The notes under the pieces were generated by a model that saw only the letters and a program-made list of their open reading frames with translations, made no database searches and had not been told where the DNA came from. 12,469 bases of DNA from the NCBI GenBank assembly GCA_947631485.1, contig CANRLJ010000013.1, positions 1-12,469 on the forward strand, written 5' to 3'. Source of the DNA: an uncultured Clostridia bacterium (GTDB taxonomy: Bacteria > Bacillota > Clostridia > Christensenellales > UBA1242). A program made the translations under genes and the position numbers. Below are positions 225-12,469 of this stretch, in pieces. How positions within the stretch are numbered: position 1 is the stretch's first letter; each line of letters starts with the position of its first letter.

Positions 225-446
225 CCAACTTATAGTTTTTATTATTTTTATTTATTGTGTAATAATACTCTTAATAATGCTATGTGGAAATGTGTGGAAA
301 AGTTGGATTAACCCCTTCATAATCAACATATAGCGTTGTTTTTGAGAGGCATAGGCACAATATATGTGAAAAGTGAAAACTTTGAAATGTGGACAACTAT
401 GTGCAAAAGATGTTTGTTGTTGAGTCTTGTTATCCACTTATCAACA
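225..446. other. Candidate chromosomal replication origin (oriC), dnaA-dnaN interval
   Basis: This is the only stretch over 300 bases without a gene (125-429), extended slightly into the 3' end of dnaA. Positions 225-282 are very AT-rich (a possible unwinding element). They are followed by DnaA-box-like 9-mers (consensus TTATCCACA). On the minus strand these are 283-291 (two mismatches), 293-301 (TTTTCCACA, one mismatch) and 388-396 (TTGTCCACA, one mismatch). On the plus strand they are 430-438 (TTATCCACT, one mismatch) and 438-446 (TTATCAACA, one mismatch); these two share a base and lie over the dnaA stop codon. Position between dnaA and dnaN is the classical place of the Bacillus unwinding origin. 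No box matches the consensus perfectly. Confidence 0.68.
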
Positions 447-1779
447 TGTCTCTGATGTCGTTTATAAGGGTTTGTGTTTTCTTGTTTGATTTTAGGTCTT
501 GCGAAATTTTGTCGCGCGAGTGCATGATTGTGGTGTGGTCTCTTCCTCCAAACAATTTTCCAATGTTCACAAGTGGCAGATTTAGGATGTCACTTATAAG
601 ATATATGGCAATCATCCTTGGTTCAACAATCTCTTTGTTTTTCTTCTTTCCGGTTATGTCCTGATATGAAACATTAAAGTAGTCGCACACAACAGAGATT
701 ATTTTGTCTGGGGTGAGGTCGTTTTTTATTTCCTCTTTCTGATTTGAAAATATGTCAAGAGCCTCTTCCATCGTTGCAACTTTCTTTCCGGACAAGGTGG
801 CAAGAAAATACACCTCAGACAACTTTCCTTCCAATTCTCTTATGTTTGTGTCAACATTTTCTGCAATGTAATTTATGACATCATCGTCGGCATAATATTT
901 TTCAAGTTGGCTCTTTTTTCTTAATATGGCAATTCGCGTTTCGATGTCTGGCTTTTGAATATCATGAATAAGCCCACTTGCAAAACGAGAACGCAATCTG
1001 TCTTCAAGAGTTGGAATATCTTTCGGTGGTCTATCAGAACAAATTATGACCTGTTTGTTGTTTAAGATAAGTTCGTTGAAGGTGTGGAAAAATTCTTCCT
1101 GAGTTTCTTTTTTGTTTGAAATAAACTGAATATCATCAACAAGCAGCACATCCAAATTTCTGTATTTTCCTCTGAATTCCATGACTGCCTTGTTTTTTGT
1201 TGGAGACCAAAGGGAGGCAATATAGTCGTTTGTGAACTGTTCGCAAGTTGTGTACATGATTTTCAGTTTTGGAGAAAATTCTCTGATATAATTTCCAATT
1301 GCGTGCAACAGGTGAGTTTTTCCAAGCCCAACACCGCCATAGATGAAAAGAGGGTTATATCTTTTGCCTGGGTGTTCGGCAACAGTTCTTGCAGCGGCAT
1401 AAACAAACTGATTGCTTTTTCCTACGACAAAGTTGTCAAATGTGAACTTTTCGAAAAACGGATTTGGCTCTTCCGTTTGAACAGCTTTTTTGTCCTCGAC
1501 ATTGTTGCTTTTCATATATTCAATTTCTTCGTTTTGGTCAAGCACGACAATCTTCATCTGTCGCCCCATAACTTCATTGCAGCACTCACTGATTTTGTCT
1601 ATGAAATTTCTGAGAATCTGATTTTTTGCTGACACGGACTGAGTTGCTATGACAAAATGGTCGTTTTCATCAATTTCGATGGGTTTTGTTGGCTCAATCC
1701 ACAGCATATATGACACTGAGGATATGCGAAGTTCCAACTTTTCCAAAACCTGTTTCCAAATGCTTTGAATATCTTGCAT
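430..1779 (-). CDS. dnaA: Chromosomal replication initiator protein DnaA
   Basis: A complete 449-residue protein of the normal family length. DnaA binds DnaA boxes as an ATP-dependent filament, opens the origin and loads the helicase. Domain I is residues 1 to about 80 (starts MQDIQSIWKQVLEKL), followed by a short variable linker (about 81-105). The AAA+ ATPase domain has Walker A GGVGLGKTH at 148-156, Walker B VLLVDD at 211-216 and the arginine-rich RLRSRF at 261-266. The C-terminal DNA-binding domain carries the DnaA signature GGRDHTTIMHS at 411-421. The start ATG (1777-1779) has an AGGAG at 1786-1790 with 6 nt spacing. It is divergent from recF. No DnaA box is evident near its promoter, so autoregulation is not visible there. 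All key motifs are intact. Confidence 0.98.
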   Translation of the reverse strand: MQDIQSIWKQVLEKLELRISSVSYMLWIEPTKPIEIDENDHFVIATQSVSAKNQILRNFIDKISECCNEVMGRQMKIVVLDQNEEIEYMKSNNVEDKKAVQTEEPNPFFEKFTFDNFVVGKSNQFVYAAARTVAEHPGKRYNPLFIYGGVGLGKTHLLHAIGNYIREFSPKLKIMYTTCEQFTNDYIASLWSPTKNKAVMEFRGKYRNLDVLLVDDIQFISNKKETQEEFFHTFNELILNNKQVIICSDRPPKDIPTLEDRLRSRFASGLIHDIQKPDIETRIAILRKKSQLEKYYADDDVINYIAENVDTNIRELEGKLSEVYFLATLSGKKVATMEEALDIFSNQKEEIKNDLTPDKIISVVCDYFNVSYQDITGKKKNKEIVEPRMIAIYLISDILNLPLVNIGKLFGGRDHTTIMHSRDKISQDLKSNKKTQTLINDIRDMLISG

Positions 1780-1879: not shown

Positions 1880-2968
1880 GTGAAAATACAATCAATAGAA
1901 CTTGACGGCTTCAGAAACTACGGCCACATAAAGACAAAGTTTGACGACAATGTAAACATTTTAATAGGAAAAAATGCTCAGGGAAAGACAAACCTATTGG
2001 AAAGCATTTTTTATTGCTGCATAGGGAAAAGTTTTAAGTCATGCAAAGATAAAGAACTTGTAAATTGGTCGGCAGAGCAAGCAAGAATTAAGATTGTTGC
2101 ACAAAAAAAATACAGAGATTTGACGATTGAAGCAAGGCTGTTTAAAGACCAAAAAAAGACGATAAAAATAAATGACCTTCCAATAAAAAAAATAGGAGAA
2201 TTGATAGGAGAAATAAATGTCGTGTTTTTCTCTCCACAGGAATTGAAACTTGTAAGAGAAAGTCCGGAAGAAAGAAGAAAGTTTATGGACATTGACATCT
2301 CGCAAAACAACAAAAGATATTTCTATCAACTTTCGCGCTATGAAAAAATTTTGCAAAACAGAAACAAACTTCTTAAAAATAGCAAGACGATTGACGTTGT
2401 GAAAGAGACGGTTGAAATTTGGGACAGGGCACTTGTTGCATCAGCAAAACTTCTTGCCTTTGAAAGACAAAAATTTGTTTCGCAAATATTGCCTTTTGCA
2501 CAAAAAGCGCACTCCTACATCAGCGGAGGAAAAGAACAACTAGAACTGAAATACATTTGTGGATGCAAGGTTGAACTTGACGAAAACTTTGAAGAAAATC
2601 TGATGAAGCAACTGAGAAAAAACTTGGAGAAGGACTATAAATTAGGTTACACCTCTCTTGGCGTGCATAGAGATGATATTGACATATATCTAAATGGCGT
2701 TGAGGTGAAGGGTTTTGGCTCTCAGGGGCAGCAGAGGACTGTTGCACTGTCGCTTAAACTTGCCGAACTTGAAAATATGTGCAACATAAATGGAGAATAT
2801 CCAATTTTGCTGCTTGACGATGTGTTTTCAGAACTTGACAGCGAAAGACAAGCAAGGCTGATTAAGTTTGTTGGCAGAACGCAAACCTTCATCACTTGCA
2901 CGGACGAAAAAAAGATAAGTGGAAAGGTGTATAAAATCTCAAACGGAGAAATTGCCGTTCAAAAATGA
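1880..2968 (+). CDS. recF: DNA replication and repair protein RecF
   Basis: A 362-residue SMC-like ATPase of normal RecF length. RecF acts with RecO and RecR to load RecA at single-strand gaps in damaged or stalled DNA. Visible motifs are Walker A GKNAQGKT at 30-37, the ABC signature region FGSQGQQRTVALSL at 279-292 and Walker B ILLLDDVFSELD at 309-320. The GTG at 1880 is chosen because the N-terminus MKIQSIELDGFRNY aligns with the beginning of other RecF proteins (Bacillus MYIQNLELTSYRDY). No Shine-Dalgarno sequence lies upstream; the 5' flank is the promoter itself. recF normally follows dnaN in Bacillota, but here it lies on the other side of dnaA and is transcribed away from it. A run of eight A at 2103-2110 is inside the reading frame. 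Confidence 0.96.
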   Translation: MKIQSIELDGFRNYGHIKTKFDDNVNILIGKNAQGKTNLLESIFYCCIGKSFKSCKDKELVNWSAEQARIKIVAQKKYRDLTIEARLFKDQKKTIKINDLPIKKIGELIGEINVVFFSPQELKLVRESPEERRKFMDIDISQNNKRYFYQLSRYEKILQNRNKLLKNSKTIDVVKETVEIWDRALVASAKLLAFERQKFVSQILPFAQKAHSYISGGKEQLELKYICGCKVELDENFEENLMKQLRKNLEKDYKLGYTSLGVHRDDIDIYLNGVEVKGFGSQGQQRTVALSLKLAELENMCNINGEYPILLLDDVFSELDSERQARLIKFVGRTQTFITCTDEKKISGKVYKISNGEIAVQK

Positions 2969-10010: not shown

Positions 10011-10739
10011 ATGATGACATATGTGATTATTGGCGTTGTAATTGGTTTAGGGCTGGTGCTGTGCTTTCTGTTGGCGGTGGCAAATTTTTCGTTCAATCAA
10101 TTTTATGAAAAGTTCAAAGAAAACGATGCGCGCCGAAATTCCTATGGCATAACCACCCTCGAATATGTTTCCAGAATAAATCAAGCCTATTTCAACAACA
10201 AACTGCGTCTGACAAAGTGTGCAAAATTCAAAGACTTCTATGGCGGAGGAATTGTTGGGCTTTCCGAAAGCACAATGAAGTCAAACAGCCTGTCTTCTCT
10301 TGCAATAGTCTCGCACGAACTTGGCCACGCCCGACAAGATTTCACATCAAACAAAATAAAAAAGCACGGCAAGATGCGACTTGCGGGCAGAATTTGTGGG
10401 TTGTTTTTCATGCCATCGCTCATTGCTGGGGGAGTGATTTCAGTTTTGCAGGTGTTTGATGTGTTGCAACCGTTCTATTTCTTGATAATCGGACTTTCGC
10501 TCATCGGCCTTTCAGTTTTGATTTTCTTTTTTGCAATTTTTCTGAAATATAAAGAAATTCAAATAGAAAAAGAGGCGTCAGACTTTGCCCTTGAATATCT
10601 GCGAGAATATCTAACCGAGCCAGAGGTGGAATATTGCAAAGAGGTGCTGGACGGGGCAAGGCTGACATATTGGGCAGCGCTTGTGAGGACGCTTTTAAGT
10701 TGGACGCTCCTCACTCCCAAAAACACACTTTTCAAATAA
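10011..10739 (+). CDS. yugP: Membrane zinc metallopeptidase, YugP family
   Basis: A 242-residue protein of typical YugP (neutral zinc metallopeptidase) length and layout. An N-terminal membrane segment lies at about 4-24. The zinc-binding HExxH motif is SHELGHARQD (101-110; H102, E103, H106). Two hydrophobic segments follow at about 128-150 and 155-178, and then IEKEASDFA (185-193), where E186 is the likely third zinc ligand by comparison with the ExDAS motif of the family. The family is widespread in Bacillota; its substrates are not established. Either of two adjacent ATG codons (10011, 10014) could start translation. 10011 is preferred because it sits at the predicted transcription start. 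The gene is monocistronic, with its own promoter and a terminator right after the stop codon. Confidence 0.92.
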   Translation: MMTYVIIGVVIGLGLVLCFLLAVANFSFNQFYEKFKENDARRNSYGITTLEYVSRINQAYFNNKLRLTKCAKFKDFYGGGIVGLSESTMKSNSLSSLAIVSHELGHARQDFTSNKIKKHGKMRLAGRICGLFFMPSLIAGGVISVLQVFDVLQPFYFLIIGLSLIGLSVLIFFFAIFLKYKEIQIEKEASDFALEYLREYLTEPEVEYCKEVLDGARLTYWAALVRTLLSWTLLTPKNTLFK

Positions 10740-10745
10740 CAACAA

Positions 10746-10778
10746 AAAAAACATATGCTGTGGTTGCATATGTTTTTT
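10746..10778. terminator. Bidirectional terminator between yugP-like gene and lipoprotein A
   Basis: A perfect 13-bp stem AAAAAACATATGC (10746-10758) / GCATATGTTTTTT (10766-10778) with the 7-nt loop TGTGGTT. It has a T run on either strand, starts 6 nt after the yugP stop and ends 2 nt before the stop codon of the convergent lipoprotein gene, so one hairpin serves both transcripts. Confidence 0.92.
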
Positions 10779-10780
10779 GT

Positions 10781-11383
10781 TTAAACTGCCTCAGATGCTT
10801 GTGTTGGTGACAATGTGATGTCTTGAGGAATAATCAGTTTGTATATTTCTGCTTCTTCTTTGCCTTCACCGTCCCAGTCAATAGACAAGAAAACGGTTTT
10901 TGCAGTAGATTTGCCTGTGCCAGGAACTCCTATAAACACATGAAGGTCTGTTTCTACTGGTTGTGCATCTTCATTTGAATCAGCCAATTCATCCCAGTCT
11001 TGAGGATAGGTTTCGGCTTGTGCTTTTACAACTGCATCAGGAATTTTGTATCCCTTTCCAGCAAAGGTAATGCAAACAACATAATCACTTCCGAAAGCAG
11101 CCTTTGTATTAGGACCAACTTGTTGAAGTTCAGTTGTTGTCAGTTTATAAACAGCCTTGTATTCATCAAAGTGTTCATCTTGTGCGTTTTCTTCGGCTTC
11201 TTTTGTCAATTTTTCCCATTCTGTTGCAGCGACAGAGACAGTGTTTCCTCTAAAGTAGCCTTCAACAGCACCAAAAGAAACTGTGTGGACAACTGGTTTG
11301 CTTTCCCCACAACCAACCAAACCAAATGCGCCTACAACTGCCAAAGCAAGGCAACCTAAGCCTGTAAGTAACTTCTTTTTCAT
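10781..11383 (-). CDS. Putative surface lipoprotein A (paralogue of lipoprotein B)
   Basis: About 200 residues. The signal peptide MKKKLLTGLGCLALAVVGAF is followed by lipobox LVGC with C25 as the expected lipidated cysteine, so it should be anchored on the outer face of the membrane. The mature part is acidic and probably beta-rich, with no family I recognise. It shares with lipoprotein B the blocks VSFGxVxGxxRG (35-46), AATxW (52-56), AAFG (95-98), ITFxxKG (105-111), DWDGxG (169-174) and a terminal IP motif. GVPGTGKST (152-160) imitates a P-loop but occurs in an exported protein without other ATPase motifs. Two ATGs adjoin; the second (11381-11383) has the same 6-nt distance from AAGGAGA (11390-11396) as the paralogue and is preferred over 11384-11386. 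The gene has its own promoter, whose spacer contains nine G. Confidence 0.9.
   Translation of the reverse strand: MKKKLLTGLGCLALAVVGAFGLVGCGESKPVVHTVSFGAVEGYFRGNTVSVAATEWEKLTKEAEENAQDEHFDEYKAVYKLTTTELQQVGPNTKAAFGSDYVVCITFAGKGYKIPDAVVKAQAETYPQDWDELADSNEDAQPVETDLHVFIGVPGTGKSTAKTVFLSIDWDGEGKEEAEIYKLIIPQDITLSPTQASEAV
11294..11383 (-). repeat. Signal-peptide-coding repeat, copy A
   Basis: The first 30 codons of lipoprotein A, closely matched at the DNA level by 12018-12107 (copy B). At the protein level 28 of 30 residues are identical; only positions 5 (L/F) and 28 (S/A) differ. The similarity falls sharply after the lipobox. The two copies are direct repeats 724 bp apart and could recombine. Confidence 0.85.
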
Positions 11384-11428
11384 CATCTTTCTCCTTTTTT
11401 ATTATCTTTGCATTTATATGCTAAAAAT

Positions 11429-11459
11429 ATTCTACAAAAAATCCCCCCCCCATTGTCAA
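11429..11459 (-). promoter_or_regulatory. Predicted lipoprotein A promoter with nine-G tract in the spacer
   Basis: On the minus strand there is a perfect -35 TTGACA (11454-11459) and a -10 TAGAAT (11429-11434, one mismatch). The 19-bp spacer contains nine consecutive G (C on the plus strand, 11443-11451). Nineteen is longer than the optimal 17, so this copy is predicted to be weak as written; losing one or two G would restore 18 or 17. The upstream flank is A/T-rich and overlaps the T tract of the lipoprotein B terminator. A poorer hexamer, TGTAGA, would give 17 bp. The predicted leader is about 40 nt. Confidence 0.72.
11443..11451. repeat. Homopolymer tract C9 (G9 on the coding strand) in the lipoprotein A promoter
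   Basis: Nine consecutive C on the plus strand between the -10 and -35 of lipoprotein A. Together with 12167-12175 it is one of only two G or C runs of six or more that I find in the window. Confidence 0.95.
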
Positions 11460-11480
11460 CAAAAATGAAATAAAATTCAA

Positions 11481-11516
11481 AAAAAAGACATACGCTTAAA
11501 AAGCGTAGCCTTTTTT
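11481..11516 (-). terminator. Terminator of lipoprotein B (hairpin active on either strand)
   Basis: The inner stem TACGCTT (11491-11497) / AAGCGTA (11501-11507) has an AAA loop, extended past a small internal bulge by AAAAAAG (11481-11487) with CTTTTTT (11510-11516). On the minus strand it follows the lipoprotein B stop by about 40 nt and ends in a T tract. It separates the two lipoprotein transcripts, so each gene depends on its own promoter. Confidence 0.85.
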
Positions 11517-11555
11517 CAATTTAAAAAGTTACTTTTTATTGTGGGCTAAACTATT

Positions 11556-12107
11556 TTAGTTTTCTGCACTGTCAAATGTGAGTTCAGAGCCAGGAATAAC
11601 AAACTTGTATGTGACATCATCCTCTCCGTCGCCGTCCCAGTCAAAGTATATAACAAATCCTTTGCTTTCATTGTTGATTGTTGAGAAGTAAATGAAATTG
11701 TCACCTTTGTTTGTTCCGGTTTCAAGGGTGCTTGTGAGGTCTTTCTTTTGAGAATCTCCATCTTTCAAGGAAGTTTTAGAAATCTTCATCTCGCTTGAGT
11801 CATGTCCTTTTGTGCTAAATGTGATTGCGATGATGTTTCCAGATTCTGTCCCAAAGGCCTCTTTTGCTTCTGCGTTCCAAGCGATCGTTTGCTTGTCCAT
11901 TTTCCAGACTCCATCAAAGTCCTCTTCGGCGTCTTGTTTTGTCCATTTTGTTGCTGCAATTGTCACGTCAGCGCCTCTGTAGTTTCCTTTTACCTCTCCA
12001 AAGGACACTGGTGATGTAGGCTTTGCTTCTCCGCATCCCACAAGCCCAAAAGCACCAACAACTGCCAAAGCAAGGCATCCTAAACCTGTAAGAAATTTCT
12101 TTTTCAT
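11556..12107 (-). CDS. Putative surface lipoprotein B (paralogue of lipoprotein A)
   Basis: 183 residues. The signal peptide MKKKFLTGLGCLALAVVGAF is followed by LVGC with C25 as the predicted lipidation site. The start is the ATG at 12105-12107, with AAGGAGA at 12114-12120 and 6 nt spacing. An in-frame ATG further upstream (12137) would put ten polar residues before the signal peptide and lies inside the predicted leader, so it is rejected. The mature region is acidic and aligns only in blocks with lipoprotein A (VSFG at 34-37, AATKW at 51-55, ITF at 95-97, DWDGDG at 156-161). D156-x-D158-x-D160-G161 fits the first part of a calcium-binding DxDxDG loop, but no second loop is present. No named family is recognised. 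It has its own promoter, with nine G in the spacer, and its own terminator. Confidence 0.91.
   Translation of the reverse strand: MKKKFLTGLGCLALAVVGAFGLVGCGEAKPTSPVSFGEVKGNYRGADVTIAATKWTKQDAEEDFDGVWKMDKQTIAWNAEAKEAFGTESGNIIAITFSTKGHDSSEMKISKTSLKDGDSQKKDLTSTLETGTNKGDNFIYFSTINNESKGFVIYFDWDGDGEDDVTYKFVIPGSELTFDSAEN
12018..12107 (-). repeat. Signal-peptide-coding repeat, copy B
   Basis: The first 30 codons of lipoprotein B, direct repeat of 11294-11383 (copy A). The resemblance continues upstream in a degenerate way: both leaders contain AGCATA and ATGCAAA, and both promoters have TTGACA followed by nine G and ATTT. This points to duplication of the whole promoter-leader-signal unit. Confidence 0.85.
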
Positions 12108-12154
12108 GATTTTTCTCCTTTTAAACGATTTTTGCATACCTTTATGCTATTGTC

Positions 12155-12182
12155 ATTGTATCAAATCCCCCCCCCGTGTCAA
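12155..12182 (-). promoter_or_regulatory. Predicted lipoprotein B promoter with nine-G tract in the spacer
   Basis: On the minus strand there is a perfect -35 TTGACA (12177-12182) and -10 TACAAT (12155-12160, one mismatch) preceded by TGA (12161-12163), an extended -10. The 16-bp spacer consists of one C, nine G (C on plus, 12167-12175) and ATTTGA. Sixteen bp with an extended -10 is predicted to be active, and gain of one G gives the optimal 17. The A/T-rich inverted repeat just upstream (12190-12210) could act as an UP element. Confidence 0.8.
12167..12175. repeat. Homopolymer tract C9 (G9 on the coding strand) in the lipoprotein B promoter
   Basis: Nine consecutive C on the plus strand inside the -35/-10 spacer of lipoprotein B. 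Its length is the same as the tract in the lipoprotein A promoter, and it lies at almost the same distance from the -35 box (1 nt here, 2 nt there). Confidence 0.95.
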
Positions 12183-12189
12183 CTGAATT

Positions 12190-12210
12190 AAAAATTTTTC
12201 CAAAATTTTT
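12190..12210. repeat. A/T-only inverted repeat upstream of the lipoprotein B promoter
   Basis: AAAAATTTT (12190-12198) and AAAATTTTT (12202-12210) form a perfect 9-bp inverted repeat with a 3-nt loop. It lies between the stop of the leftward gene at the right edge and the -35 of lipoprotein B. It could be a weak terminator for that gene or an UP element; the lack of G/C pairs makes a strong terminator unlikely. Confidence 0.45.
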
Positions 12211-12232
12211 CAATGAGCGAGGAAGGCGGATT

Positions 12233-12469
12233 TTATTTTGTCTTTTTTGTTCTTCCAAGAGAAAAATTGTCTGACTTTCGGTCTTGAAGCTCTTTGACAG
12301 GATTTGGCTTTGTTTCAAAACGATAATCTTCGCCAAACCTTGAAATGTGGTCCTCAATCGTGGTGTGTCCACGCTCTTCTTCTGGCTTTTTAAACATTTT
12401 GTTTTGATATTTAAAAAAGTTTGCAGAACTTTCCACATCGTTTATGTTCACATAGCCCTCGCGATGGGC
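12233..12469 (-). CDS. C-terminal part of an unidentified protein, cut by window edge
   Basis: The frame is open from the right edge to the TAA at 12233-12235, giving 78 residues that begin AHREGYVNINDVESSANFFK and end in SLGRTKKTK. It is strongly charged and hydrophilic, without a membrane segment or a motif I recognise. An internal GTG (12449-12451) could be mistaken for a start, but no Shine-Dalgarno sequence precedes it and the frame stays open upstream, so this is more likely the tail of a longer gene. It reads in the same direction as the two lipoprotein genes and ends about 50 nt before the lipoprotein B -35 box. Confidence 0.6.
   Translation of the reverse strand, partial: AHREGYVNINDVESSANFFKYQNKMFKKPEEERGHTTIEDHISRFGEDYRFETKPNPVKELQDRKSDNFSLGRTKKTK

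Follow-up and report, generated by a model that had tools for sequence, protein, structure and literature searches.

Nine-G tracts in two tandem lipoprotein promoters, candidate slippery spacers, are one case of a genus-wide G/C promoter-tract design in an uncultured clostridial genus

Two tandem lipoprotein genes of an uncultured clostridial bacterium are each preceded by a promoter whose spacer holds a run of exactly nine G, which raises the question of whether the length of such a run could set the expression of a surface protein. The window that we analyzed, meaning the whole stretch of DNA under study, is a single contig of 12,469 bases from a genome of 779,975 bases that is 76.6% complete and divided among 118 contigs. 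Lipoprotein genes B (12107..11556) and A (11386..10781) lie in tandem on its minus strand. Upstream of gene B, on the same strand, the -35 box TTGACA (12177..12182) is followed by a single C, the G9 tract (12167..12175; C9 on the plus strand), ATTTGA, and the -10 box TACAAT (12155..12160), giving a spacer of 16 bases. Upstream of gene A, again on the minus strand, the -35 box TTGACA (11454..11459) is followed by AT, the G9 tract (11443..11451), ATTTTTTG, and the -10 box TAGAAT (11429..11434), giving a spacer of 19. These promoters are predicted, since the boxes were set by consensus match. With G9 in place and spacers of 16 and 19, neither promoter stands at the usual 17. The original prediction had described this order of TTGACA, one or two nucleotides, nine G and a -10 box before both genes, and had called the two tracts the only G/C runs of their kind in the window; both statements hold, and no other run of even six G or C occurs in the window.

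Gene B encodes a lipoprotein of 183 amino acids (we took the ATG at 12107; the mechanical open reading frame begins at 12137), and gene A one of 201 amino acids. A BLASTP alignment of 194 columns gives 39% identity between the two proteins, whose signal peptides are almost alike. Leader and signal-peptide code of both genes are covered by a 111-nt direct repeat, with copies at 11303..11413 (gene A) and 12027..12137 (gene B) that are 81% identical. A signal peptide and a lipobox, read by eye, predict that the products sit at the cell surface. Pfam returned no match for gene B and two matches far under the cut-off for gene A, scanning named genomes with the lipoprotein sequence yielded no confirmed relative, and a protein database search gave four matches, at least one of which (P0002) is apparently gene A itself. 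We drew no function for gene B from its predicted structure: the model, built from seven sequences, was beta-rich with a mean pLDDT of 69.8, and its top PDB matches were antibody domains, with a best E-value of 0.017 and none at or below 0.001. Just past the -10 box, both leaders carry palindrome-like elements, GCATAAAGGTATGC and GCATATAAATGC (window 12134-12147 and 11410-11421, minus strand), and two other loci (L234 and L235) have a similar AGCAT...TTGC; an operator or a 5' stem is possible. Elsewhere in the window, dnaA (430-1779, minus strand) and a RecF-like gene (1880-2968, plus strand) are back-to-back neighbours; the gene list has nothing between the two, and dnaN was not seen there, so a replication origin may sit near 1780-1879.

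To place the two tracts in context, we listed the G/C runs of the window's own genome. There are nine runs of eight or more, seven of which are nine or ten long, against a rough chance expectation, for 780 kb and both strands, of 2.6 runs of eight or more and 0.5 of nine or more (taking p(G) = 0.195 from the composition of the window, which may not be the genome's). Four of the nine lie in promoter spacers, namely, the two G9 tracts of the window, a C10 tract on contig C4 (spacer 18, before a small membrane-like protein), and a C10 tract on contig C40 (spacer 20, before another lipoprotein-like gene). Among the others, one run (C24:9127) is inside a gene that a search assigned to glycosyltransferase family 2, and one (C69) lies close to a contig end; three more were placed by a look at the sequence, near where two glycosyltransferase-like frames meet (C24:4519), inside another such frame (C77), and in a NUDIX-like frame (C2). 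Tract position departs from chance more than tract number does.

The same promoter anatomy recurs across the genus. Searching for TTGACA, 0 to 4 bases, a run of at least eight C, 2 to 10 bases, and TANNNT, we found matches in 57 of 112 genus genomes, and the corresponding G form in 26, compared to none of the 112 for either base when the patterns were reversed; a looser earlier pattern had matched 19 of 101 genomes, versus 2 of 101 for its reversed control. With TAWAAT as the -10 box, the G form was present in 18 of the 112 genus genomes (hand count) versus 3 of 398 phylum genomes. The C form occurred in at least 42 of the 112 with TATAAT (hand count), versus a single one of the 398 with TAWAAT, which was the window's own genome. 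This comparison used a stricter -10 box than the window's own promoters (TACAAT and TAGAAT) would pass.

Runs of exactly nine G or nine C were found in 87 of the 112 genomes, and from the first 30 genomes among the matches listed we drew a promoter-independent sample of 109 distinct runs. Forty-eight of these lay wholly inside a promoter spacer (-35 box with at least 5 of 6 matches; -10 box with at least 4 of 6 and the form TA....T), versus 164 of 6,190 random nine-base positions at the same loci (2.6%). The other 61 divided into 47 within a stop-to-stop frame of at least 100 codons and 14 that were not. In 33 of the 48 the layout was a second one, missed by our initial search patterns, in which the tract is at or near the -10 box and the -35 box ends 5 to 9 bases upstream of the tract. 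About 14 of the 48 spacer runs come from a single genome, G043. Its loci L377 to L392 include about 14 promoters in which G9 directly adjoins the -10 box; 13 belong to the -10-proximal type, and almost all the runs are on one strand. Chance is excluded as the source of the pattern, and the promoter-tract design is genus-wide. The anatomy given in the original prediction was correct for the two lipoprotein promoters, and the system is wider than described there: tracts of both G and C, in two spacer positions, occur in many genomes.

What lies behind these promoters? By a home-made predictor of N-terminal hydrophobic or lipobox segments, the products of 46 of 52 G-tract genes and 36 of 88 C-tract genes are exported or membrane bound, compared to 26 of 139 background open reading frames (Fisher p of 4e-19 and 4e-4, respectively, uncorrected for relatedness). 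These gene sets derive from 57 G sites, 5 without an open reading frame and 13 from one genome, and from 89 C sites, 1 without an open reading frame. A Pfam search of 130 tract-gene proteins gave 84 families, and among the 25 listed were BspA-type leucine-rich repeats, Listeria-Bacteroides repeats, GLUG, choline-binding repeats, and adhesive domains, with 2 to 6 members each. A surface reading fails to account for the 52 of 88 C-tract genes that have no exported start (for example, those at L271, L275, and L296), many of which are small and without a known family. In a family of exported proteins, eight of them in the sample (L365, L367, L368, L393, L427, L433, L439, and L442), a G9 run lies within the coding sequence after the signal peptide, 33 to 53 codons past the start except in L442, where the start is uncertain and the distance is 13. 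Five of the frames that follow run on for at least 130 codons or as far as the retrieved sequence reaches, and the other three meet a stop codon within 12; judged from these frames, the coding runs are likely sites of translational switching.

We then considered tract lengths and spacers at the 146 -35-proximal sites of the genus, a count that covers runs of eight or more. G tracts of 8, 9, 10, and 11 occurred at 9, 31, 15, and 2 sites, and C tracts of 8, 9, and 10 at 22, 63, and 4. A search from four C upward returned ordinary promoters with C4 to C5, some with C7, and about 12 interrupted C-rich spacers. The spacer modes were 16 and 19 for G and 15 to 16 for C, apart from a few stray values between 11 and 25, for which the -10 box may be mis-picked. 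Tract-free promoters at the same loci had a mode of 17 to 18 (36 of 52, or 15 of 23 under stricter criteria), compared to 12 of 57 G and 16 of 89 C sites with such spacers. The idea that tract promoters shun a spacer of 17 was dropped, because the -10-proximal type, with a mode of 16, has 12 of 33 at 17 to 18; we kept only the shift in mode, which with caution may be taken to mean that the set point lies a little away from optimal spacing. An extended -10 element (TGn) was found in 35 of 57 G and 50 of 89 C tract promoters versus 12 of 52 controls, so dependence on spacing should be softened.

To ask whether tracts change in length, we compared paralogs and related species across 302 sites. 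Six pairs had equal edge bases and a flank identity of 95% or more, and tract length differed in three of these (the Faecalibacterium locus L090 being in two of the three), with 4 indel events in the 891 flank bases of the six; at 80% flank identity or more, 31 of 73 pairs differed, with 220 indel events in 10,861 flank bases. The per-base excess of tract change over flank indels falls from 12-fold in the closest pairs to 2.4-fold at 80% identity, as expected if a tract can differ just once per pair, but this limits the strength of the test. The clearest pairs each come from a single genome: loci L075 and L090 of Candidatus Faecalibacterium gallistercoris have G8 and G10 with 146 flank bases ungapped, and L069 and L117 of an uncultured Clostridia genome have G11 and G10 with one flank gap. 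Thirteen related promoters of genus genome G061 have G9 (10 promoters), G10 (2 promoters), or G11 (1 promoter). L069 and L117 also carry an inverted repeat, CAACCGAG...CTCGGTTG, around the -10 box beside the G tract. At the Faecalibacterium loci L075, L087, and L090, the contigs stop about 65 to 110 bases beyond the tract, in what appears to be promoter and signal-peptide sequence common to many genes, and such shared-promoter families are probably under-assembled.

Relatives of the lipoprotein itself add a comparison between species. Gene B has matches in six other genus genomes, four over most of its length and two in the signal peptide only. Near full-length relatives in G110 and G024 are preceded by TTGACAGC-G9-ATTTG and TTGACAGC-G6-ATTTG, respectively, the latter with G6 in place of G9, and those in G039 and G061 have no tract within 160 to 170 bases upstream of the gene. 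The two matches limited to residues 1 to 39 have a tract as well: TTGACAGC-G9-ATTTG in G072 and G9 straight after TTGAC in G092. Since there are relatives with and without the tract, and matches in the signal peptide only, the tract promoter is gained or lost between species and also travels with the signal peptide to other genes.

Tract promoters are also present in other lineages. The strict G form was found in at least 118 stretches of named genomes, and a hand count of 80 titles among the matches listed gave 63 Bacillota and 17 other bacteria. Many of the matches listed were uncultured gut Bacilli or Clostridia, together with Faecalibacterium, with several per genome. Downstream of the 124 sites, of which 25 lacked an open reading frame, 71 of 99 frames had an exported start; at least four of the loci (L102, L105, L111, and L121) belong to the window's genus, so this set is not wholly independent. 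Virus contigs gave one and five matches, too few for a comparison of alleles. A literature search, with subscription papers mostly outside it, returned no description of promoter-spacer G/C tracts in Clostridia.

Our reading is that the G9 tracts are slippery promoter spacers of the porA type and that the pair is one case of the genus-wide G/C promoter tracts, to which we assign a probability of roughly three in four. Slippage would change the length of G9 within the spacer, shift the distance between the -35 and -10 boxes, and so tune transcription of the surface-protein gene; with a tract for each gene, the two tandem genes would yield several expression states. By the porA spacing rule, a single extra G should raise expression of gene B (spacer 16), and the loss of two should do so for gene A (spacer 19). 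We infer slippage as the cause, switching within a population, and an effect on transcription, and any benefit would be against host, phage, or competitors. Phase variation at these promoters is likely, as judged from sequence comparison, and the candidate phase-variable surface system of the original prediction gains support from the recurrence in the genus, the export bias of G-tract genes, and the length differences between copies; the G6 in place of G9 in another species and the coding tracts in and out of frame fit it too. Other observations speak against slippage. Nine is the dominant length (31 of 57 G and 63 of 89 C tracts), as a fixed motif would also give; three of the six closest pairs are equal in length, and interrupted C-rich spacers occur; the excess of length change is strong in the closest pairs only; two of the four near full-length relatives lack the tract; the extended -10 element is commoner in tract promoters; and C-tract genes are mostly not exported. 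Mismatch repair is kept as well. With mutS in 111 of 112 genus genomes (over the cut-off in 103), loss of mismatch repair as a driver is unsupported in the genus, and slippage would have to run against repair. The window's own genome has a C-terminal mutS fragment, with stops only in the last few dozen codons before the contig end, and then a mutL-like start (mutL called by eye).

The dominance of nine and the interrupted C-rich spacers of similar size are what one would expect if a regulator or RNA polymerase read about nine G or C in the spacer as a fixed recognition element, its length held constant, and the clustering of C-tract sites at spacers of 15 to 16, with shared TTGACAAAT-C9-G forms before unrelated small proteins, points the same way. 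We nevertheless consider such an element unlikely, because the runs occur on two strands and in two positions, at either end of the spacer and before different genes, and because some near-identical copies differ in tract length; runs of equal length inside surface and glycosyltransferase-like genes, moreover, need no binding role. Less probable still is that the tracts reflect mutation bias or the shared ancestry of copied leaders, with no regulatory effect, or are in part assembly artefacts. It is true that the two leaders in the window are the copies of the 111-nt repeat, that many sites fall into paralog families, and that G/C runs are hard to call in reads, according to the available text of one study (PMC9187656). 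Against this stand the concentration of sampled runs in promoter spacers, at 48 of 109 versus 2.6% for random positions, the absence of the reversed pattern from all 112 genomes, the bias of G-tract genes to export, and the presence of runs on both strands in many independent genomes.

Invertible promoters are the better-known clostridial mechanism of surface variation. As the mechanism here they have next to no chance of being correct, even though they are known in Clostridioides difficile from the available text of PMC11868660. In the region 10700-12469 we found six inverted-repeat pairs (arms of at least 12 nt, seed 9), the longest an A/T-rich pair of 20 nt at 80%, and none brackets a single promoter; nor was a recombinase present among the seven window proteins scanned.

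If the slippery-spacer reading is correct, surface variation through promoter slippage, so far familiar mainly from mycoplasmas and a handful of Gram-negative pathogens, would be a main mode of regulation in whole lineages of uncultured gut Bacillota. A single consensus genome would then conceal variation in tract length, ordinary metagenome reads could reveal expression state through tract length, and the selection of commensal surface states by immunity, phage, or competitors would become directly askable. We also entertain a wider proposal, to which we give slightly less than even odds. On this view, an uncultured genus of Clostridia whose genomes measure about 1 Mb would maintain large combinatorial surface variation. 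As many as tens of promoters in a genome would each carry a separate G or C tract that usually leaves the spacer one to three bases away from its optimum, such that expression is low in most cells and a single slip turns a gene up. Coding-frame tracts after signal peptides would form a second layer, and the same design would have arisen or spread in other gut Bacillota (Faecalibacterium and uncultured Bacilli).

Several known systems share parts of this arrangement. The Vlp lipoproteins of Mycoplasma (Mesomycoplasma) hyorhinis are encoded by tandem genes with a common signal peptide, each with its own promoter tract, of poly-A. The pair described here is likewise a set of tandem lipoprotein genes with a shared signal peptide and a promoter tract apiece, but its tract is G9, which places it outside the Vlp class. 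The invertible promoters of C. difficile also give promoter-level variation in Clostridia, which for our promoters we infer, but as far as the available text goes (PMC11868660) they act by site-specific inversion, and the lack of bracketing inverted repeats here sets the two apart. Campylobacter phasomes, in the available parts of two reports (PMC6321876, PMC8355987), resemble the genus in combining many G/C homopolymers with a small genome; in the genus, 48 of the 109 exact-nine runs sampled were placed in promoter spacers. Bifidobacterium breve UCC2003 is, like the present organism, a Gram-positive gut commensal with G tracts, and slippage in them alters a surface structure, as measured by deep sequencing. 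It belongs to the Actinomycetota, however, and the switch demonstrated in the available text acts on the coding frame of pilus genes, whereas ours would act in promoter spacers; further G tracts in promoter spacers are mentioned there without detail (PMC9187656).

The closest likeness is to porA of Neisseria meningitidis, in which a poly-G tract lies between the -10 and -35 boxes. In the available text of PMC3639595, the surface level is two-fold lower with 10G and 13-fold lower with 9G than with 11G, and there is escape from antibody, which is faster in a mutS mutant; PMC7864442, also available in part, gives 17 as the best spacing. There are differences. In those sources 11G is the high state and a single gene is concerned, whereas here tracts are mostly of nine G or C and stand before many promoters per genome; expression graded by tract length is described for porA and is a prediction here; and ours is a Gram-positive gut clade with putative switching. 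Two defining features of the porA type are nevertheless present, as the poly-G lies wholly between the -35 and -10 boxes of each gene and the product is a predicted surface protein, and by this analogy the system probably works like porA.
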